Program-made: the position numbers and the translations under genes | Shown: in pieces, positions 20,443 through 34,216 of the stretch | Layout: each line of letters begins with the position of its first letter | How positions within the stretch are numbered: the stretch's first letter is position 1 | From: an uncultured Acholeplasmatales bacterium | GTDB lineage: Bacteria > Bacillota_I > Bacilli_A > Acholeplasmatales > Anaeroplasmataceae | Direction: 5' to 3' | Length of the DNA: 35,082 nucleotides | Assembly (NCBI GenBank): GCA_944324725.1 | Contig: CALUXJ010000007.1 | Location: 1 to 35,082 of the forward strand | Notes under the pieces: model-generated | Told to the model about the DNA's origin: nothing | The model's input: the letters and a program-made list of their open reading frames with translations, nothing else | Databases searched by the model: none

Positions 20443-21015
20443 TTACTTAACTAATTCGCCGTAAATAACGCCAGCTAAAGCACCAGCATTAGATTCATCA
20501 GTATCAATATGCATAGCTAATGCATAATTTTTTGATACTCTTACAACTGTATCTTCAAATACTAATTTACGACCAGTTTCGTTAACAACCTTAACAGCAA
20601 CGATGTCACCATTTTTAACACCGAATTCTTCAGCATCTTCAGGAGTCATATGAACATGACGTTTTGCTACGATAACACCTTCAGCAAGTTCAACTTCGCC
20701 ACATGGTCCAACTAATTTGCAAGCACCACTACCTTTAATATCACCAGATTCTCTTACTGGAGCAGTAACACCGATAGTACGGCAATCTGTAAATGATAAT
20801 TCAACTTGGTTATGGTTTCTTTCAGGTCCTAAAATAGAACAATTTAATTCACCCTTAGGTCCAACAACCTTAACCTTTTGGCAAGATGCAAATTGACCAG
20901 GTTGAGATAGCATCTTCTTTACTTCTAATTTAGCTTCTGGTCCGAATAATACTTTTAAAGCTTCTTCAGTTACATGAACGTGTCTAGCACTTGTTTCAAT
21001 TAAAATTTGTTTCAT
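20443..21015 (-). CDS. pduL: Phosphate acyltransferase PduL (phosphotransacetylase type)
   Basis: A 190-residue enzyme of the PduL family, unrelated in fold to Pta, that interconverts acyl-CoA and acyl-phosphate at a two-zinc site. The two pseudo-repeats carry ETSARHVHVT and VAKRHVHMTPEDAEEFG, with MHIDTDESNA near the C-terminus; the His clusters are the metal ligands. The ATG at 21015 (with AAAGGA) is chosen over an in-frame TTG 24 nt upstream. The protein begins directly with the catalytic domain and lacks the N-terminal encapsulation helix of microcompartment PduL, so it is cytosolic. With pflB nearby, I infer acetyl-CoA to acetyl-phosphate for ATP by acetate kinase, which is not in this window. 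Confidence 0.93.
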   Translation of the reverse strand: MKQILIETSARHVHVTEEALKVLFGPEAKLEVKKMLSQPGQFASCQKVKVVGPKGELNCSILGPERNHNQVELSFTDCRTIGVTAPVRESGDIKGSGACKLVGPCGEVELAEGVIVAKRHVHMTPEDAEEFGVKNGDIVAVKVVNETGRKLVFEDTVVRVSKNYALAMHIDTDESNAGALAGVIYGELVK

Positions 21016-21041
21016 AATACTTTTCCTTTCTTTCCACAATA

Positions 21042-21069
21042 ATTATAGCACTTTTGTTTTATTTTACAA
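21042..21069 (-). promoter_or_regulatory. pduL promoter
   Basis: On the minus strand TTGTAA (complement of 21064-21069), 16-nt spacer, TATAAT (complement of 21042-21047) preceded by TGC, an extended -10. Confidence 0.7.
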
Positions 21070-21088
21070 ATATTTTTACGTTTAAAAC

Positions 21089-21116
21089 TTGCTTTTAAAT
21101 GAATTTAAGATAAAAT
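21089..21116 (+). promoter_or_regulatory. Promoter of the HD hydrolase-rnmV-ksgA/ispE operon
   Basis: TTGCTT (21089-21094), 16-nt spacer, TAAAAT (21111-21116). It diverges from the pduL promoter with about 20 bp between the two -35 elements. Confidence 0.45.
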
Positions 21117-21144
21117 GAAGGAGTAAAAGAAAAGAGCTGATAAG

Positions 21145-22335
21145 ATGTTTAAAACTCTTCCACGCACAAAAGTGTTTAGAGATCCCCTTTATGGATATAT
21201 TGAAGTTGACTTAGAGGTAATAGCTAAGCTAATCGATAGTAAAGAAGTTCAAAGACTAAGAAGAATTAGGCAATTAAGTGGTGTTTGTATGGTTTTCCAA
21301 ACGGCAGAACATTCGCGCTTTTGTCATGCCCTTGGGACTTACCAAATGGCTAACTTAGTATTGGAAAAGGTAGAAGGGGCTAAAACAAACTTAAGTGAAT
21401 ATGAACAAGTTTTATTCTTATGTGCGGCTTTACTTCATGATGTTGGTCATGGTCCCTATTCTCATGCTTTTGAAAATATTTTAGATGTAGCGCATGAGGA
21501 AATGTCAGCTCGGATAATAACTTTTCCGGCGGGTGACATTTATCAAATTTTGCTTAATTATCAAATAAATCCCCTAGATGTAGCTAATATAATTAGAAAA
21601 AAATCGCCTTATAAATTAGTGGAGCAATTAATTTCTAGTCAATTAGATGTGGATCGGTTAGATTATTTAGCTAGGGATGCGTATTTTACAGGGGCAACTT
21701 ATGGTACTATTGATCGCAACCGGTTATTAAGAAGCTTAATTGTTACGAAGGATAAAGTTTTAGTTAGGGCTTCGGGACTGCATTCAGTGGAATCTTATTT
21801 AATGAGTCGGTATCACATGTATTTCCAAGTCTATTATCACCCAGTAGCAAGAGCTTATGAATTGTTGCTTGAAACAATTTATCTTCGCATTAAGGATTTG
21901 ACAGAACAAAATGTTAAAATTAACGCTAATTTAGAAGATTTTTTACAGGTTATTAAGAATAGTAATAATATAGAAAATTATATTGAAATTGATGATTCTT
22001 ATGTCAATGGTTTTATTAAGCAACTTTTAAAATCAAGTGATCCAATTTTAAACAAATTTGCCAATGCTTTAGAAAATAGACATCTTTTCTCTTATATTGA
22101 ATTAGAGGAAAATACCAATTTGAGTCAAGTTCTACCTTATAAGGATAAAAGATATTATTATTATGAATCAAGAGTTTCGGCAGTGGCGTATTTAACTAGT
22201 AAGGGGAAAGATAGTATTAAGATTCTCTTACCAGATAATAAAATTGTGGCTTTAGAAGAATATTCTAAAGTTATTAGTGCCCTAGCTGCTTCTAGCTATA
22301 AGGAAGTACAAAGAATTTATTATTTTGAAGGATGA
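21145..22335 (+). CDS. HD-domain dNTP triphosphohydrolase-like protein (YwfO family)
   Basis: A 396-residue HD-superfamily metal-dependent phosphohydrolase. The N-terminal RTKVFRDPLYGYIEV and the QRLRRIRQL...AEHSRFCHALG block are typical of the YwfO/EF1143 dNTPase group. HD residues are H61, H98-D99 (AALLHDVGHGPYSH) and the later D in DVDRLDYLARDAY. Characterised relatives hydrolyse dNTPs to nucleoside and triphosphate, often under allosteric nucleotide control. It is the first gene of an operon with rnmV and ksgA/ispE. The start lacks a strong Shine-Dalgarno (AAGAG 9 nt upstream; GAAGGAG is 21 nt away). Confidence 0.85.
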   Translation: MFKTLPRTKVFRDPLYGYIEVDLEVIAKLIDSKEVQRLRRIRQLSGVCMVFQTAEHSRFCHALGTYQMANLVLEKVEGAKTNLSEYEQVLFLCAALLHDVGHGPYSHAFENILDVAHEEMSARIITFPAGDIYQILLNYQINPLDVANIIRKKSPYKLVEQLISSQLDVDRLDYLARDAYFTGATYGTIDRNRLLRSLIVTKDKVLVRASGLHSVESYLMSRYHMYFQVYYHPVARAYELLLETIYLRIKDLTEQNVKINANLEDFLQVIKNSNNIENYIEIDDSYVNGFIKQLLKSSDPILNKFANALENRHLFSYIELEENTNLSQVLPYKDKRYYYYESRVSAVAYLTSKGKDSIKILLPDNKIVALEEYSKVISALAASSYKEVQRIYYFEG

Positions 22336-22339
22336 TATA

Positions 22340-22876
22340 ATGGATATAATTGTTGTTGAAGGCATACATGATTACGCTTTAATCAAAAAAATCTATCCCA
22401 CCAGTATAGTTATTACAACTAATGGTAGTGAAATAAGTCCAGAAACCTTAAAACTTTTAGCTACCTATAGTAAAGATAACGAAATTATTATTTTTACAGA
22501 TCCTGATTACCCTGGCGAACGGATAAGAAAAAAGATTAAAGAGGTTTGTCCCCAAGCTAAGGAAGCATTTATTCCTAAAAATGTTTGTATTAGTAAAAAT
22601 AAACGTAAAGTTGGCGTCGAACATGCTAGTGAAGCAGCTATTAAAGCTGCCTTAGCCAATGTTTATACCAATAGTTCTACTTTTAAATTTTGGGATTTAA
22701 GGAAATTAATTGCATTAGGGTTAGCTGATCAAGAACAGGCTAGTAATAGACGAGCTTATTTGGCCAGTCGGTTAAATATAGGCAATCCCAATACGAAAAC
22801 CTTGATAAACCGGCTTAATAGCTTTGGTATTACAGAAGAGAAAGTTAAGGAGCTTTTAGAAGAATATGGAAATTAA
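22340..22876 (+). CDS. rnmV: Ribonuclease M5
   Basis: A 178-residue TOPRIM nuclease that matures 5S rRNA precursors in Gram-positives. The N-terminal IIVVEGIHD holds the catalytic glutamate and IIFTDPDYPGERIRKKI the DxD metal motif. The C-terminal part is helical. The ATG at 22340 is chosen because GAAGGA lies 7 nt upstream and MDIIVVEG is the family start; the TTG 15 nt earlier overlaps the previous gene. It overlaps ksgA by 11 nt, and the rnmV-ksgA pairing is conserved in Bacilli. Confidence 0.93.
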   Translation: MDIIVVEGIHDYALIKKIYPTSIVITTNGSEISPETLKLLATYSKDNEIIIFTDPDYPGERIRKKIKEVCPQAKEAFIPKNVCISKNKRKVGVEHASEAAIKAALANVYTNSSTFKFWDLRKLIALGLADQEQASNRRAYLASRLNIGNPNTKTLINRLNSFGITEEKVKELLEEYGN

Positions 22877-24473
22877 GGCAAAAAAGGAATTTGGTCAGAA
22901 TTTTTTGACCAATCAAAAGGTTATTGATGATATTATTACTAACTTAGGACCAATTGATGATGCTCTTGTAATTGAAATAGGTCCTGGACGTGGAGCTTTA
23001 ACTAAAAAACTGGTTAAAAAGGCTAAATGTTTACTCGCTTATGAAATAGATAAAGACTTAATTAAACTACTTCAAAAAGAAATTCCCGATCCTAATTTTA
23101 TTCTAAAAAATTGTGATATTTTAACTGCCAATATTAAGAAAGATATTGAAAAGTATGGTTCTAGTTGTCAAAGCGTTTATGTAGTTGGTAATTTACCATA
23201 TTATATTACTACTCCTATTATGCTTAAGTTAATTGAAGAGAACTTAGAAGTTGCTAAATATTTATTCATGGTACAAGAAGAGGTGGCAGATCGCTACACT
23301 TCCTTAGAAAACAATAAGGATTATAATTCCTTAACTGTGTATCTAAACTATTTATTTGTTACACATAAATGCTTTGTCGTTCCTAATACGAGCTTTTATC
23401 CGATTCCTAAGGTAAGTAGTGCCATAATTAGTTTAGTTCCTCGTGAAAACAAGCTAACACCAATCAGTGAAGAATATTTCTTTATGATTAATAAATTAAT
23501 TTTTAGACAAAAAAGAAAAACGCTCCATAATAATCTTAAGGATAAATTTAGTTCTGATGTTATTACTAAAGCCTATGATAACCTTGGTTTTAAGCCTAGT
23601 ATCCGTGCCGAAGAGCTTAGTATTTTAGATATTGTTAATTTAGCTGATGAATTACTTAAATTAACTAATGTTTATGAAAAGGCTCATGCCAAAATTAATT
23701 TGACGCTACGGGTTTTCCCAGCAGAAGGTAGTTATCACCCGATTAATTCTTTAATGGTGCCTTTAGATTTGGCTGATGATTTAATTTTTACTTTTGGCGA
23801 AAAGGATACAATTTATAGTAATGTAGCAATTGAAAATAATATCTTGTTAAAAACTCTAGAGCTTTTTAAAACGACGTATAACTTAACGCAAGGTGTCAGT
23901 ATCTACTTAAGAAAAAGTATTCCCCTAGCTGCTGGTTTAGCGGGAGGTAGCAGTGATTCAGCCGCTTGTTTAAGAGGGTTAAACCGACTCTTTAATTTGC
24001 ATTTGAAATTAGAAGAATTAACTAATTTGGCTAATCAATTGGGTTCAGATAATAATTTTTGTCTTTATTCGCGTCCCGCTATTTGTAGTGGTCGTGGGGA
24101 AAAGCTAGAGTTTATTGCTCCAATTAAGGAGCTATCTCTAATTTTAATTAAGCCTAATTTTGGTTTAAGTACGAAAGAGATATATGATAATTACAAATTT
24201 TTAGAAGCCAATGATACAACTAATCTAGTAGTTAAAGATTTAACTAGTGATTGCAGCATACCAGGTGGTCTTTTTAATGATTTAGAGGCTCCGGCATTGC
24301 AAAATAAAAAATATCAAGACTTTGTAAATAAATTAAATGCTTTAGGCGTTATAACTTATCAAAGTGGTAGTGGTCCAACTCGCTATTCTTTTAAGATAAG
24401 TGATTTAGAAACCATCAAAAAGGCATTTCCAGATTGTTTTATTTGTCTTACTAAATTGACAAATGGTAATTAA
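22866..24473 (+). CDS. rsmA-ispE: Fusion protein: 16S rRNA dimethyladenosine transferase (KsgA/RsmA) + 4-diphosphocytidyl-2-C-methyl-D-erythritol kinase (IspE)
   Basis: One 535-residue frame joins two complete enzymes. Residues 1-267 are KsgA, which dimethylates two adjacent adenines near the 3' end of 16S rRNA: GQNFL (10-14), SAM motif VIEIGPGRGALT (35-46), N109-L-P-Y112, FxPIPKVSSAI (178-187) and RQKRKT. Residues 268-535 are IspE, the GHMP kinase of the MEP isoprenoid pathway: AKINLTL with K276, ATP loop PLAAGLAGGSSDSA (353-366), catalytic D395 and GSGPT (501-505). The IspE motif around D395 reads GSDNNF where GSDVPF is usual. There is no in-frame ATG, GTG or TTG at the junction (about 23664), so IspE cannot obviously be started separately. 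In Bacillus the genes are neighbours (ksgA, veg, sspF, ispE), so the fusion fits gene loss between them. It overlaps rnmV by 11 nt. Confidence 0.92.
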   Translation: MEIKAKKEFGQNFLTNQKVIDDIITNLGPIDDALVIEIGPGRGALTKKLVKKAKCLLAYEIDKDLIKLLQKEIPDPNFILKNCDILTANIKKDIEKYGSSCQSVYVVGNLPYYITTPIMLKLIEENLEVAKYLFMVQEEVADRYTSLENNKDYNSLTVYLNYLFVTHKCFVVPNTSFYPIPKVSSAIISLVPRENKLTPISEEYFFMINKLIFRQKRKTLHNNLKDKFSSDVITKAYDNLGFKPSIRAEELSILDIVNLADELLKLTNVYEKAHAKINLTLRVFPAEGSYHPINSLMVPLDLADDLIFTFGEKDTIYSNVAIENNILLKTLELFKTTYNLTQGVSIYLRKSIPLAAGLAGGSSDSAACLRGLNRLFNLHLKLEELTNLANQLGSDNNFCLYSRPAICSGRGEKLEFIAPIKELSLILIKPNFGLSTKEIYDNYKFLEANDTTNLVVKDLTSDCSIPGGLFNDLEAPALQNKKYQDFVNKLNALGVITYQSGSGPTRYSFKISDLETIKKAFPDCFICLTKLTNGN

Positions 24474-24512
24474 TTGTAAAGAAAAGGCTTACTTACTAAT
24501 AAAAATTTGAAA

Positions 24513-24526
24513 AAATAGTGCTATTT
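24513..24526. repeat. Palindrome in the prs promoter region
   Basis: AAATAG-TG-CTATTT forms a 14-bp inverted repeat centred about 24 bp upstream of the -10 box, over the place where a -35 would be. It may be an operator or an activator site for prs. No PurR-box similarity is claimed. Confidence 0.35.
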
Positions 24527-24537
24527 AATAAAAAATT

Positions 24538-24546
24538 TGCTATAAT
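24538..24546 (+). promoter_or_regulatory. prs promoter, extended -10
   Basis: TGCTATAAT at 24538-24546 within the 14-nt string ATTTGCTATAATAC that also occurs at the 13.68 kb promoter. No consensus -35 is present. AGGAGG lies 8 nt before the ATG at 24574. Confidence 0.7.
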
Positions 24547-24573
24547 ACACTTTGGTTTTAGGAGGATAAATAA

Positions 24574-25563
24574 ATGTCTATTTTGTTAGGTAAAAAAGTT
24601 AAATTATTTAGTTTATCTGCTAATCGCCCTTTAGCAGAGGAAATTGCTAAATCAATTGGGATTGAATTATCTAGTTGTGATGTTTTACATTTCGCTGATG
24701 GTGAAATTAATGTCAACATTAATGAAACAGTTAGAGGACATCATGTTTTTGTAATTCAACCAACTAGTGCTCCTGTTAATGAGCATTTAATGGAACTTTT
24801 AATTATGTGCGATGCTTTAAAGAGAGCATCTGCCAAAACTATTAATTTGGTTATTCCATATTATGGTTATTCTAGACAAGATCGTAAGGCTAGATCACGT
24901 CAACCAATTTCTGCTAAATTAGTTGCTGATTTATTACAAACAGCTGGCGCTGATAGAGTTATTGCGATGGATTTACATGCTGCTCAAATTCAAGGTTTCT
25001 TTGATATTCCAATTGATAACTTTTTAGGTCTACCTATTTTAGTTAACTACTTTATTGATGAACATTTAGATGGTAAGGATACTATTGTTGTATCTCCAGA
25101 CCATGGTGGTGTTACAAGAGCAAGAGAATTTGCTAAGGTTTTAGAATGTCCAATTGCTATTATTGATAAACGTAGACCAGAACCTAATAAAGCAGAGGTT
25201 ATGAATATATTAGGTGATGTTGTTGGTAAAACTTGTATCTTAGTTGATGATATGGTTGATACAGCTGGTACTTTAACTGCTGGTGCTGAAGCTTTAAAGA
25301 AGGCTGGTGCTAAAGAAGTATTTGCTGCTTGTACCCACGGTGTATTATCTAATCCAGCTGTAGAAAGAATTCAAAATTCTTGCTTAAAAGAATTAGTTAT
25401 TACTAACACTATTTGCTTACCAGAAGAAAAGAGAATTCCAAAGATTAAAGTTGTATCTGTTGGTTCTTTACTTGGTCATGGTATTATGCGTATTTTATCA
25501 GATGAACCATTATCTGGTTTATTCATGTATACATACGACAAATCAAAGAAAGAATTATTATAA
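24574..25563 (+). CDS. prs: Ribose-phosphate pyrophosphokinase
   Basis: This 329-residue enzyme makes PRPP from ribose 5-phosphate and ATP, feeding purine, pyrimidine, His, Trp and NAD synthesis. Recognisable are the N-terminal [18 protein letters not shown], the ATP-binding [12 protein letters not shown], the metal site [26 protein letters not shown], and the PRPP loop [18 protein letters not shown]. The length is slightly above the usual 310-320. It has a strong AGGAGG and its own promoter. The stop TAA shares its last A with the pth ATG. Confidence 0.97.
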
Positions 25564-26129
25564 TGAAGTTAGTTGTAGGTTTAGGCAATATTGGCGAAGC
25601 TTACGCTAACACTAGGCATAATCTAGGCTTTATTTGCCTAGATTATTATGCTAATACGCATAATTTGGTTTTTAAGGAAGAAAAAAAGCTTAAGTGTTAT
25701 TTAGCTAGTTTTACCAAAAATGGGGAACGCATCATTTTAATTAAGCCAACAACCTACATGAATTTATCAGGTGAAGCTGTTAGTGCAGTCATGAATTACT
25801 ATAAGGTTGATATTGAAGATGTTTTAGTAATTTGTGATGATTTAGATAGTCCAGTAGGTCGGGTTAGACTGAGAAGTGATGGTTCAAGTGGTGGTCATAA
25901 TGGTCTTAAAAATATCATTTTACACACTGGCACCCAAGGTTTTAAAAGAATTAAAATTGGTATTTCCCGCAATCCTTTAATTGATGTAGCAAGTTATGTT
26001 TTAGGTCACTTTAAGGAGGAGGAAATTCCATTAATTGAAGAAGCAGTTAAGGAAGCTAATTTAGCGATTGAAGAATTTATTTTAGGCGTTCCATTTAACA
26101 AAATAGCTTCAAAATATAGTAAGAAGTGA
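25563..26129 (+). CDS. pth: Peptidyl-tRNA hydrolase
   Basis: A 188-residue enzyme that releases tRNA from stalled or dropped-off peptidyl-tRNA. It has VVGLGNIGEAYANTRHNLGF with the catalytic His at 20, KPTTYMNLSG, the DDLDSPVGRVRLR strand and the GSSGGHNGLKNI motif. It is coupled to prs by TAATG. The order prs-pth-mfd matches Bacillus, where ctc lies between prs and pth but is missing here. Confidence 0.96.
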   Translation: MKLVVGLGNIGEAYANTRHNLGFICLDYYANTHNLVFKEEKKLKCYLASFTKNGERIILIKPTTYMNLSGEAVSAVMNYYKVDIEDVLVICDDLDSPVGRVRLRSDGSSGGHNGLKNIILHTGTQGFKRIKIGISRNPLIDVASYVLGHFKEEEIPLIEEAVKEANLAIEEFILGVPFNKIASKYSKK

Positions 26130-26147
26130 GTCTTAGGCTCACTTTTT
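26124..26147 (+). terminator. pth terminator containing the stop codon
   Basis: AAGTGAG (26124-26130), 7-nt loop, CTCACTT (26138-26144), T run to 26147. The pth stop TGA (26127-26129) is inside the 5' arm. mfd begins 25 nt later without an evident promoter, so mfd may rely on read-through. Confidence 0.8.
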
Positions 26148-26172
26148 GATGTTCGTTAAGGAGTTTTATAAT

Positions 26173-29100
26173 ATGGATGAATATTTGTATTATGCAAGTT
26201 TGTACCCCTTTAAGGATTTAATTCATAAGTCAGGTATTAAAATTGGTAAGTCCAATACAGAAATTAATGAGCTACTCATTATTCTAGATTATCTTACTAA
26301 TGATAATACTATTTTTGTCGTTCTCCCAACTTTGTCAGAGGCACAAACTTATTACGATGATTTAATTAAATATTTACCATTTAATCAAGTTCTTTTCTTC
26401 CCGGCTGATGAGCTTATTACGGCGGAAATGTTGTCTAGTTCAGGTGATTTTGTCTATGAACGCTTAGAGACAATGACCTCACTTTTAAATAGTGGTAAGT
26501 ATGTTGTTATTACAAACACTAATGGCATCTTAAAACGTGAATTTCCTGTTGAGAGCTTTAAACGTTATATTTTTACCCTTAAAAAGGGTATGGAAATCAA
26601 ACGGGATGATTTAATTCAAAAACTTGTTATTGCGGGCTATAAATTTAATTACACGACTTTAAAAACGGGTGATTTTTCTAAACGTGGTTCTATTTTAGAT
26701 ATCTTCCCTTTTGGTCAGGACAATCCCATTAGAATTGACTTTTTTGATGACGAGATTGATTCTATTAAATACTTTAATCCAGATAATCAACGTTCCTTTG
26801 CTGAAATAGCAGAAATCGTTATTAAGCCGGTTTGTGAAATGACTTATACGGATGAAGAAGTCAAAGAGGCCATTAATAATATTACTTATTTTAAAGAAAA
26901 TAATTTATTATCTGAACTAGAAATTAATCAGATTGATAAAGATATTGAGGATTTAACCTTGAGAGAAAATACAGTCAAATTAATGCGTTATGATGCGTTT
27001 TTTCATGATGAAGCTACTAGTATTTTTTCCTATGCTACAAACAAAAAATTATATTTTATAGATGCAGGAAAAATTAGAGACATTTATCAAAACATGCTAC
27101 TTGATTTATCAGAATATGAAGGACGTTTAGGTGGTAATTATATTTCTAAATTAGAACCCTATATTAATCTTAGTAGCTATAGTCCAGATATTTTAATTGA
27201 GGGTGCTAAAAGTATAGGTGATTTAGATTTTTCCTTTAATCATGATGAAATTACCTATTTTTGTGGCAACGAGGAAGCTATTAATAAAGAATTAGGTAAG
27301 CATCAAGGAATTAGAAAAATCTTAATAGCGACCAGTAATCAAAATTTAATTGAAAAGCTGAAGAAAAGCTTATTTGAGCATGAAATATTTTATAATGAAG
27401 GTCCTATTTACGCCCCTAAGGATTCTAGTACCATTTTCTTTACTAATAAAAATTTACCAAGTGTTAAATTTAAGGCAGAAGATATTTATATTTTAAATGA
27501 AACCTCCCTTATGCAAACGCCAAGTAGTAATAAGAAAAATCCGCGTTATAAATCAATTTATAAAAATTCTATTAAAATTAATAAATATGATGAATTAAAA
27601 ATTGGTGATTATATTGTTCATTATGACTATGGTATTGGCAAATATTTAGGTATTAAAACTTTAATTAATGCCGGGGTTAAAAGAGACTACATTTATTGCG
27701 AGTATGCTAATAACTCTAGTTTATATGTACCAGTAGAAAATATTTCTAGTATTATGAAATATGCCTCATATGATGTAGAAGGCATTCAAATGCATGAGAT
27801 AGGCGGTACAGCTTGGGCTAAAACGAAGGAAAAGGTTCGGAAAAAGGTTAGAGATATTTCAGAACGTTTAATAGCCTTATATGCTAAAAGAGAAAAAACG
27901 ACTGGTTTTGCTTTCCCACCGGATGATCCACTGCAATTAGAGTTTGAAAATGATTTTCCTTACGAACTAACTCCTGATCAAAAACAAGCCATCGAAGCAG
28001 TTAAGCATGATATGGAGCGCAGTGTGCCAATGGATAGATTAATTTGTGGTGATGTTGGTTATGGTAAAACGGAAGTAGCTCTAAGAGCGGCCTTTAAGGC
28101 GGTCTTAGGAGGTAAGCAAGCGGCCCTTTTATGTCCAACTACGATTTTATCTGATCAACATTATCACACCTTTTTAGATCGGATGAGTAAATATGGGGTT
28201 AAGGTTGAACTCTTAAATCGCTTTGTTTCTAGTAAAAAACAAAAGGAAGTTCTAGAGGGGTTATTGACAGGTAATATTGATGTCATTATTGGCACGCATA
28301 AATTACTGAATAAAGAAATTAAATTTAAAGATTTAGGTCTATTAATTATTGATGAGGAGCAGCGCTTTGGGGTTGTTCATAAAGAAAGAATTAAGGAAAT
28401 GAAGGTCAATGTTGACTGCATTACTTTATCAGCTACCCCAATTCCGCGCACTTTACAAATGTCAATGCTTGGCATTAAGGATTTATCAATGATTGAAACT
28501 CCGCCTAAAAATAGATATCCAATTCAAACTTATGTCATTGAACAAAATAATTCTATTATTCGCGATGCCATTGAGCGGGAATTAGCGCGTCATGGCCAGG
28601 TATTCTATTTATATAATAACGTGGCTCACATTGAAGAAAAGGCCATTGAAATTGCTAAGCTTTGTCCAGGAGCCCGGGTGGTTTTTGCGCATGGTCGATT
28701 AAAAAGTAGTGAACTGGAAAAAAGAATTTATGATTTCATTTATAAAAAATATGATGTTTTAGTATGTACAACGATTATTGAAACAGGAATTGATATTCCA
28801 GAAACTAACACCTTAATTATTAATGATGCTGATAGGCTTGGTTTAGCTCAGCTTTATCAAATTAGAGGCAGGGTAGGTCGTTCTAGTAAAATTGCCTATG
28901 CTTATTTGATGTATGAACCACATAAATTACTAACTCCAGAGGCAGAAAAACGCCTAGAAGCAATTAAGGAATTTAATGAATTAGGTAGTGGCTTTAAGAT
29001 TGCGATGCGCGATTTATCCATTAGAGGTTCTGGTGATTTATTAGGGGCGGAACAATCAGGTTTTGTGGAGTCAGTTGGTATTGAAATGTATATGAAAATT

Positions 29101-29613
29101 TTAAATGAAGAAATTAATCATGTAACCCCACCAAAACCAGATAATAACCCACTAGTTAAAAAGCCATTATTATCATTAACTGTTAATGAAAATTATATTC
29201 AAAATGAAGATATTAGAATTGAAGTTCACAAGAAAATTGAAAGCTTAGCTTCAAAGGAAGAATTTAATAACCTCAAAGCTGAATTGACGGATCGTTTTGG
29301 TTATATTGATGATGATACGTATGAATATATGTATGAAAAGCTCTTTAAAAATATGGCTAAGTCCTTTGGTTTTGAAGATGTTAATATCAATGAGTTAAAA
29401 ATGATTATTTTGACAATGAATAAGGAAAAAAGTAGTCAAATTAGGGGAGATTTGTGGTTTAGCGTTTTAAATAACCATAAAAATTTAATTTTAAAGTATA
29501 TCCATCCACATATTATTTTACAAACCCGTAAAGAAAATAGTGTTTTAGATGGAATGAAGGACATTATAAATTATCTATCAGAAGTAAAAAATAAGGTAGA
29601 AAAGTCCAGTTAG
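26173..29613 (+). CDS. mfd: Transcription-repair coupling factor
   Basis: A 1146-residue ATP-driven translocase that removes stalled RNA polymerase and recruits UvrA to lesions. It has an N-terminal UvrB-like module, an RNA-polymerase-interacting CarD-like domain starting KIGDYIVHYDYGIG (about 475), and RecG-type translocase motifs: Walker A GDVGYGKTEVALRA (about 625), DEEQRFGV (about 726), SATPIPRTLQMS and RGRVGRSSKIAYAYL. The C-terminal autoinhibitory domain follows. I use the ATG at 26173 because AAGGAG lies 9 nt upstream; a TTG at 26146 is in frame but sits in the pth terminator T run. Confidence 0.97.
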   Translation: MDEYLYYASLYPFKDLIHKSGIKIGKSNTEINELLIILDYLTNDNTIFVVLPTLSEAQTYYDDLIKYLPFNQVLFFPADELITAEMLSSSGDFVYERLETMTSLLNSGKYVVITNTNGILKREFPVESFKRYIFTLKKGMEIKRDDLIQKLVIAGYKFNYTTLKTGDFSKRGSILDIFPFGQDNPIRIDFFDDEIDSIKYFNPDNQRSFAEIAEIVIKPVCEMTYTDEEVKEAINNITYFKENNLLSELEINQIDKDIEDLTLRENTVKLMRYDAFFHDEATSIFSYATNKKLYFIDAGKIRDIYQNMLLDLSEYEGRLGGNYISKLEPYINLSSYSPDILIEGAKSIGDLDFSFNHDEITYFCGNEEAINKELGKHQGIRKILIATSNQNLIEKLKKSLFEHEIFYNEGPIYAPKDSSTIFFTNKNLPSVKFKAEDIYILNETSLMQTPSSNKKNPRYKSIYKNSIKINKYDELKIGDYIVHYDYGIGKYLGIKTLINAGVKRDYIYCEYANNSSLYVPVENISSIMKYASYDVEGIQMHEIGGTAWAKTKEKVRKKVRDISERLIALYAKREKTTGFAFPPDDPLQLEFENDFPYELTPDQKQAIEAVKHDMERSVPMDRLICGDVGYGKTEVALRAAFKAVLGGKQAALLCPTTILSDQHYHTFLDRMSKYGVKVELLNRFVSSKKQKEVLEGLLTGNIDVIIGTHKLLNKEIKFKDLGLLIIDEEQRFGVVHKERIKEMKVNVDCITLSATPIPRTLQMSMLGIKDLSMIETPPKNRYPIQTYVIEQNNSIIRDAIERELARHGQVFYLYNNVAHIEEKAIEIAKLCPGARVVFAHGRLKSSELEKRIYDFIYKKYDVLVCTTIIETGIDIPETNTLIINDADRLGLAQLYQIRGRVGRSSKIAYAYLMYEPHKLLTPEAEKRLEAIKEFNELGSGFKIAMRDLSIRGSGDLLGAEQSGFVESVGIEMYMKILNEEINHVTPPKPDNNPLVKKPLLSLTVNENYIQNEDIRIEVHKKIESLASKEEFNNLKAELTDRFGYIDDDTYEYMYEKLFKNMAKSFGFEDVNINELKMIILTMNKEKSSQIRGDLWFSVLNNHKNLILKYIHPHIILQTRKENSVLDGMKDIINYLSEVKNKVEKSS

Positions 29614-32780: not shown

Positions 32781-32790
32781 CTCCTTTTTT
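32765..32790 (+). terminator. Terminator spanning the DUF523 stop codon
   Basis: AAAGGAGC (32765-32772), 7-nt loop, GCTCCTTT (32780-32787), then TTT. The TAG stop (32778-32780) straddles the loop and 3' arm, and the 5' arm encodes the end of the protein. Confidence 0.88.
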
Positions 32791-32800
32791 GAGGTTTTAT

Positions 32801-33577
32801 ATGACAAAGGAAAGTTTAATAAGAGATTTAATACAGGGTGGCTTGAAAAAGAACGATAAGGTCTTGCTTCATACTTCTTTAAAGCAAATAGGTGAAGTAG
32901 ATGCTAATGTTGTATTAGATGCAATTATGGAATATTTTAATCAGGGTTTAGTACTAATGCCAACCCATACATGGGACATTGTTAAGAATGATGATGATAT
33001 TTTTGATGTAATTAATTCAAAACCTAATACAGGAATATTGCCAACTTTATTTATGCAAAGACCTAACGTCTATCGCAGTCTTCATCCAACTCATAGTTTA
33101 GCAGCTTTTGGTAATGGGGCAAAAGACTATATTCTAGGTGAAGAATTCTTAACTACTCCATGCAGTCCTCAAGGAGTTTATGGGCGGTTATATGCTATAG
33201 ATGCTAAGATTTTGTTAGTTGGGGTTAATCATAGTAAGAATACTTATATTCATAGTATAGAGGAAAGTTTTGGGGTGACTAATCGCTTAAATCCCCAATT
33301 AAATTATTTCAAGGTACTTGATTATAACAGAAAAACATTAACTGTCGCTATGCACCGGCATTATTGTTCTCTCCACCCACATGTTTCGGAATGTTATCAA
33401 AAGCTTGACCCAATCTTTTTAGAATTAGGTGTTGAATATAAAACTAAATTTGGCAACGCTACAATGATAGTGGTATCAGCACAAAAGGCGTTTCAAGTCC
33501 TAGCTAAAATTTTTGCTAAAGAAAAACAAATTCTTGTAGAAAAAGAGTATATTCCTACTGAATACTATAGATATTAA
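32801..33577 (+). CDS. AAC(3)-family (aminoglycoside 3-N-acetyltransferase-like) protein
   Basis: A 258-residue protein of the Antibiotic_NAT fold. The family landmarks are present: VLLHTSLKQIG near the start, LMPTHTWD, TGILPTLFMQ, the RSLHPTHSLAAFG block with the likely catalytic His, PCSPQGVYGRL and ILLVGVNHSKNTYIHSIEE. Members acetylate aminoglycosides, but chromosomal relatives such as YokD and FrbF act on, or are suspected to act on, other substrates; resistance should not be assumed. I start at the ATG at 32801 (GAGG 6 nt upstream); an in-frame TTG 12 nt earlier lies in the preceding terminator. Confidence 0.8.
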   Translation: MTKESLIRDLIQGGLKKNDKVLLHTSLKQIGEVDANVVLDAIMEYFNQGLVLMPTHTWDIVKNDDDIFDVINSKPNTGILPTLFMQRPNVYRSLHPTHSLAAFGNGAKDYILGEEFLTTPCSPQGVYGRLYAIDAKILLVGVNHSKNTYIHSIEESFGVTNRLNPQLNYFKVLDYNRKTLTVAMHRHYCSLHPHVSECYQKLDPIFLELGVEYKTKFGNATMIVVSAQKAFQVLAKIFAKEKQILVEKEYIPTEYYRY

Positions 33578-33610: not shown

Positions 33611-34216
33611 ATGCAAAATAATAGAATTTACATCTATAAAGTTAAAGTAAAACATAAGAAATGGGTTAAGTGGGTTAAAATTTTGGTCGCTTTAGCTAAT
33701 GATAAGGGTGGTACATTTTATTTTGGTATGAAAAGTGAAAACGATGTAAAAGGAATTATAAATCCGGATAAAGAAATAGAATTTATTACAGAAAAAATAA
33801 CCAAGTTAATTCAACCACAAATAAGTTTCACTATCAGCAAAAAAACTATTTATAATAAGATTGTTATTCAATTAGAGGTTGCCGCAAGTTCACAGCTTGT
33901 TTGGTTTACTAATAAAGATAAACTATTAGTTAGTTATGTTTATAAGGATAGTAGAATTGTTCCACTTACTTATGCTGATTTAGTTACTAGTATGGTAAAT
34001 AAACCAAATAAAGATGAAAATCTAAAATATATGAAAGAAATTGTGGATTATTGTCAAACTCCTAAAACAAGACAAGAAATTCAAGATTATATTGGTATAG
34101 CTTCAAGACCTTATTTTCGAGAAGCCATTTTGTTACCTTTAATTGAAGCGGGCTTAATTTTACCAACAAACCCTAATCCGCGCGCTAGTAATCAAAAGTA
34201 TATAGCCAAGAAGTAA
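33611..34216 (+). CDS. Short AlbA_2/Schlafen-like ATP-binding domain protein with C-terminal winged helix
   Basis: A 201-residue protein. Residues 20-50 read VKILVALANDKGGTFYFGMK...VKGI, the core of the AlbA_2 (divergent AAA/Schlafen) domain. The C-terminal part (PKTRQEIQDYIGIASRPYFREAILLPLIEAGLI...NQKYI) resembles the winged helix that ends many AlbA_2-GHKL regulators. The glutamate and FK usually found before the ALAN motif are replaced by Lys/Trp, and the middle GHKL-like region of longer relatives is missing, so it may be a shortened or divergent form. AGAGGTGA precedes the ATG. It stands alone between an acetyltransferase-like gene and pflB. Function unknown. Confidence 0.6.
   Translation: MQNNRIYIYKVKVKHKKWVKWVKILVALANDKGGTFYFGMKSENDVKGIINPDKEIEFITEKITKLIQPQISFTISKKTIYNKIVIQLEVAASSQLVWFTNKDKLLVSYVYKDSRIVPLTYADLVTSMVNKPNKDENLKYMKEIVDYCQTPKTRQEIQDYIGIASRPYFREAILLPLIEAGLILPTNPNPRASNQKYIAKK

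Follow-up and report, generated by a model that had tools for sequence, protein, structure and literature searches.

In Bacillus subtilis, the genes for the 16S rRNA dimethyltransferase KsgA (RsmA) and for IspE, a kinase of isoprenoid precursor synthesis, lie in one gene string, which we take to be rnmV-ksgA-yabG-veg-sspF-ispE. In Mycobacterium tuberculosis, the ksgA-ispE pair is co-transcribed with rpfB in an rpfB-ksgA-ispE operon (PMC6009663). Among enzymes of the MEP pathway, to which IspE belongs, IspDF fusions are well known (PMC13001223), and KsgA is known to touch 16S helices 24 and 27, in the platform of the 30S subunit, through its C-terminal domain (PMC9032327). Papers searched for a KsgA-IspE fusion, largely outside the subscription journals, yielded the gene pair of actinobacteria and mentions unrelated to it but no account of the fused protein, which may nevertheless have been described before.

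Here we analysed a 35,082-nt stretch of DNA (the window), a 35 kb contig around dnaA, dnaN and gyrase, in which ksgA and ispE form one ATG-started, stop-free frame of 535 codons. The features of the locus are as follows.

22325-22876, forward strand: rnmV (ribonuclease M5; TIGR00334, 133.8 bits)
22866-24473, forward strand: ksgA-ispE fusion gene, ATG to TAA, 535 aa
22866-23651, forward strand: KsgA/RsmA part, residues 1-262, by sequence a 16S rRNA A1518/A1519 dimethyltransferase (TIGR00755, motif alignment, Foldseek)
23622-23672, forward strand: junction from the last KsgA helix to the first IspE strand, with neither a flexible linker nor an in-frame start
23668-23670, forward strand: out-of-frame ATG, recognized by comparison with the close-packed relatives G034 and G035
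23673-24470, forward strand: IspE part, residues 270-535, by sequence a CDP-ME kinase (TIGR00154, motif alignment, Foldseek)
24574-25563, forward strand: prs, the downstream neighbour, named by eye from the sequence

The rnmV gene shares 11 nt with the start of the fusion gene and adjoins it upstream in all four lineages in which the fusion occurs; prs also follows the fusion in G144 and G272, which belong to other families. A compact string at 20443-29613 comprises PduL (opposite strand), an HD hydrolase, rnmV, ksgA-ispE, prs, pth and mfd, with several overlaps of a few bases, and this PduL-to-mfd order recurs in G035, G144 and the named Acholeplasmataceae locus L039. Further along, the window encodes an AAC(3)-like acetyltransferase of the Antibiotic_NAT family (32789-33577) and, close to the contig end, an SLFN_AlbA_2 domain protein with a Fic-like C-terminal domain (33611-34216). 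Neither a tRNA nor an Rfam family above threshold was found in positions 1-35082.

Both parts of the protein pass the curated cut-offs of their families: NCBIfam TIGR00755 (ksgA) matches residues 3-262 with 233.1 bits against a cut-off of 171, and TIGR00154 (ispE) matches residues 270-508 with 163.9 bits against 138.7, in agreement with Pfam (RrnaAD, 4-263; GHMP_kinases_N, 325-398). In alignments, the KsgA part carries EIGPGRGALT, NLPYYITTP and FYPIPKVSSA unbroken, covering the SAM-binding and NLPY motifs, and the IspE part carries K276 (AKINL), the ATP loop PLAAGLAGGSSDSA and D395 (LGSD). These matches and motifs uphold the sequence-only reading, which had seen a complete KsgA and a complete IspE in one frame. 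The AlphaFold2 model has two domains (mean pLDDT 93.8, pTM 0.87); helix 253-267 at the end of KsgA leads directly into strand 269-283, where IspE begins, and pLDDT stays above 90 throughout this join; the pTM suggests that the domains are held in a defined, rather rigid mutual arrangement. Foldseek matched the KsgA half to 6ifs, 6ifw and 7o5h and the IspE half to 4dxl, 1uek and 2v2q.

On this evidence, the gene very probably encodes a genuine bifunctional protein whose two active sites are independent, and it probably came about through loss of a spacer and an indel that joined the frames. Late in 30S assembly, the N-terminal half would dimethylate 16S rRNA at A1518/A1519; the C-terminal half would phosphorylate CDP-methylerythritol in the MEP pathway, and the two active sites would work independently within one polypeptide. 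We infer that both enzyme activities are present and that the protein accumulates at full length without processing; if it is indeed unprocessed, KsgA and IspE would stand in a 1:1 ratio because they are a single polypeptide.

The fusion was seen in 11 genomes: six of the window's genus (g1), two of g2 (G010 and G020), two of another family of the same order, f4 (G144 and G145), and one of another family of the class (G272). A tree of the joined domains from 50 loci requires four state changes, also across the 5-95% bootstrap range, and the joins of g2, f4 and f19 are unlike the g1 join in sequence. Judged by the tree, the KsgA-IspE fusion has four or more separate origins; sampling was partial, and the real number of fusions may exceed that seen. 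A phylum-level sample contained no further fusion, a scan of genome contigs gave no fused relative that carries a name, viral contigs held no relatives, and the best matches over both halves in a plasmid collection were two separate pieces on very large replicons. Three candidates for additional fusions (G257, G321 and G435) were rejected, as their KsgA frames are of ordinary length despite the long frames reported for the hits. Readthrough at stops within joint matches (L007, L008, L011 and others) was likewise rejected; these are adjacent genes in the same frame, each with its own ATG.

Unfused relatives point to how the two genes may have come together. At the loci examined in relatives that keep a spacer, ksgA and ispE are about 810 nt apart, and the gap encodes a protein resembling YabG, a spore protease. 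We detected yabG in g3, g5, g7 and part of g2, amounting to 19 of 55 family genomes (0/19 fused), and the family's eight fused genomes all lack it; the matches to TIGR02855 are strong, the best having an E of 2e-65, but all fall under the curated cut-off, and a control search was positive only in Bacillus subtilis. Where yabG is missing, ksgA and ispE abut or overlap, and fusions are confined to such loci. The window's own genus includes two unfused genomes of this kind, with the genes 1 nt apart in G034 and overlapping by 8 nt in G035; in two named Acholeplasmataceae loci (L038 and L039), also unfused, the overlap is 11 nt, and these group, at a bootstrap of 94, with the two fused f4 loci (L031 and L032). 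The string rnmV-ksgA-yabG-veg-sspF-ispE is likely the ancestral order. It had been proposed from the sequence that loss of veg and sspF as spacers allowed the fusion; the loss of a spacer stands, but its identity has to be revised, since the gene that separates ksgA from ispE in unfused relatives is yabG. According to a published survey, Acholeplasmatales and related orders lost sporulation repeatedly, and many Anaeroplasmataceae genomes retain some sporulation genes (PMC10868615). The family studied here is probably Anaeroplasmataceae, of the Acholeplasmatales, judging by the two named Acholeplasmataceae loci in the tree and by the sizes of genomes in the order.

The junction can be compared base by base across the genus. 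From a conserved GAT codon to a GAA codon, the spacing is 27 nt in all six fused g1 species and 25 nt in G034 and G035 (hand count), a difference that corresponds to the shift bringing ispE into the ksgA frame. The same join is found, in frame, in G031, G032, G033, G036 and G037; the contig of one of these five species stops within IspE, and the complete proteins are 59-64% identical to that of the window. The out-of-frame ATG sits where ispE starts in the unfused relatives and probably descends from the earlier ispE start codon, which would once have overlapped the ksgA stop; an out-of-frame AATG is retained in three of the six fused g1 species, including the window, and is missing in the other three. 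In the history that we propose, yabG would have been lost from between ksgA and ispE during sporulation decay, leaving the two genes abutting or overlapping by a few bases, and an indel with loss of the ksgA stop would then have set them in one frame. The fusion would have been retained because the end of KsgA and the beginning of IspE can be joined without harm, and the same would have happened in at least four lineages. We infer this order of steps, from spacer loss to overlap to fused frame; beyond the family, the sequence of spacer loss and fusion is read from a tree in which some branches are long.

Neighbouring gene pairs in the same loci provide a control for packing. The rnmV and ksgA genes overlap or lie at most 30 nt apart in 43 of 44 loci and are fused in 0 of 44; for the HD hydrolase gene and rnmV the corresponding counts are 32 of 33 and 0 of 33, and 11 of 50 loci have ksgA and ispE fused. 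Expressed as events, four fusions of ksgA-ispE stand against zero for rnmV-ksgA and zero for HD-rnmV, where the first of the four is our starting observation and the choice of loci by match score favours fused ones. With moderate confidence, these sequence counts indicate that ksgA-ispE is more prone to fuse than the neighbouring pairs. A tolerant KsgA C-terminus would explain this readiness: in family f3 (G134 and G135; L033:1507-2757 and L035:1504-2754) the KsgA C-terminus is joined to a NUDIX hydrolase domain, and ispE overlaps the end by 8 nt; this is an independent fusion at the same KsgA end. Together, the moderate strength of the control and the tolerance of the KsgA end favour a joining that was tolerated rather than selected.

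The reading that fares best after this one is that the fusion was favoured by selection for tying the supply of isoprenoid precursors to 30S maturation, by a fixed ratio, co-localization or mutual control. We consider it unlikely. Slightly less likely again is its specific form, in which docking of KsgA on the immature 30S subunit would control or localize IspE, or vice versa, making isoprenoid supply track ribosome production in these genome-reduced bacteria. Recurrence of the same fusion at four independent origins fits selection, but most close-packed relatives remain unfused; the equally tight rnmV-ksgA (44) and HD-rnmV (33) pairs never fused, but the loci were chosen by a match score biased to fused ones. 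Co-transcription of ksgA and ispE with rpfB in M. tuberculosis (PMC6009663) and the predicted rigid, rather than floppy, join also agree with a coupling, whereas the two enzymes have no common substrate or product, and the NUDIX fusion in another family points to a permissive KsgA end and not to a special partner.

Another reading is that the frame yields two products by a cryptic internal start, re-initiation or proteolysis at the join, which appears quite improbable. As had been noted from the sequence, the junction has no in-frame start: ATG, GTG and TTG are absent in frame from about 23606 to 23699 of the window, and the first such codon in frame is a TTG at 23700, within the AKINL motif. 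An in-frame ATG, GTG or TTG is likewise lacking at the join in all six fused g1 species, the window's out-of-frame ATG, itself absent from three of the six, soon runs into a stop, and the AlphaFold2 model has no disordered linker. Separate products gain some plausibility outside g1, where in-frame ATGs precede the IspE part by no more than about 12 codons in G020, G010 and G145, those of G010 and G145 being inside the conserved KsgA C-terminus.

That one half has decayed or changed in role, leaving a single working enzyme, is more improbable still. Estimates of dN/dS are below 1 in both halves (0.087 for the KsgA part of the closest pair), rough values given that synonymous sites are AT-biased and partly saturated, and they indicate purifying selection on each half. 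The IspE half does evolve somewhat faster than the KsgA half, but K276, D395 and the GLAGGS loop are kept in all five fused g1 species with a complete IspE half, one D-to-N change being seen in G037 right after the glycine-rich loop. The catalytic Asp is followed in g1 by SDNNF or SDNVF instead of SDVPF, a departure already present as SDNAF in the unfused sister G035. A second ksgA or ispE was not found at E ≤ 0.001 in the window's genome (1.395 Mb), which is 89.5% complete and could hold such a copy in its missing part; more complete fused relatives (96-99%) likewise have one match apiece. The same genome contains dxs, dxr, ispD, ispF, ispG and ispH, the ispD match being below its curated cut-off (148.6 against 181.3 bits) yet adjoining ispF, and with these other six MEP genes present the IspE half is probably needed. 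In two members of the order, G059 and G113 (the latter of phytoplasma-like size), the single match covers the KsgA part only, and dxr, ispG and ispH are absent too.

An assembly or sequencing artefact is barely conceivable: although genes overlap in relatives and a one-base error deleting the intervening stop could mimic a fusion, the same junction occurs in six g1 species and a second lineage, f4, shares its join between two species, which refutes an assembly error for both.

The fusion represents a two-enzyme architecture whose likely birth stages (spacer gene, overlapping genes, fused frame) can be seen side by side, and the fused group consists of uncultured, genome-reduced relatives of mollicutes. 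Four independent origins amount to a small natural experiment that sets function against gene packing and a tolerant protein end. The fusion also calls for caution in 'Rosetta stone' inference and in automatic annotation, where only one half may be labelled.

Set against known systems, the N-terminal half contains the whole domain and all motifs of KsgA/RsmA (TIGR00755), with B. subtilis KsgA (6ifs) as its best Foldseek match, but the usual form is a stand-alone protein of about 270-290 aa and the last helix here continues into the kinase. Similarly, the C-terminal half has the whole GHMP kinase fold of IspE (4dxl, 1uek, 2v2q), with K276, the ATP loop and D395, and is the sole ispE found beside the MEP genes; unlike those enzymes, it lacks a separate translation start and is joined to an enzyme from a different pathway. 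Bifunctional IspDF also places an MEP enzyme within a fusion, but it unites two enzymes of one pathway, whereas KsgA-IspE joins unrelated pathways. Three of the KsgA-IspE-fused genomes have IspD and IspF in one frame of 369-394 aa as well (G144:C4:38630-39706, G145:C81:8228-9304 and G272:C35:3404-4543), and g1 does not. The M. tuberculosis operon shares the adjacency of ksgA and ispE but encodes separate proteins. The B. subtilis string, finally, resembles the yabG stage that persists in relatives, and differs from the locus described here, where the spacers have been lost and the frames joined.
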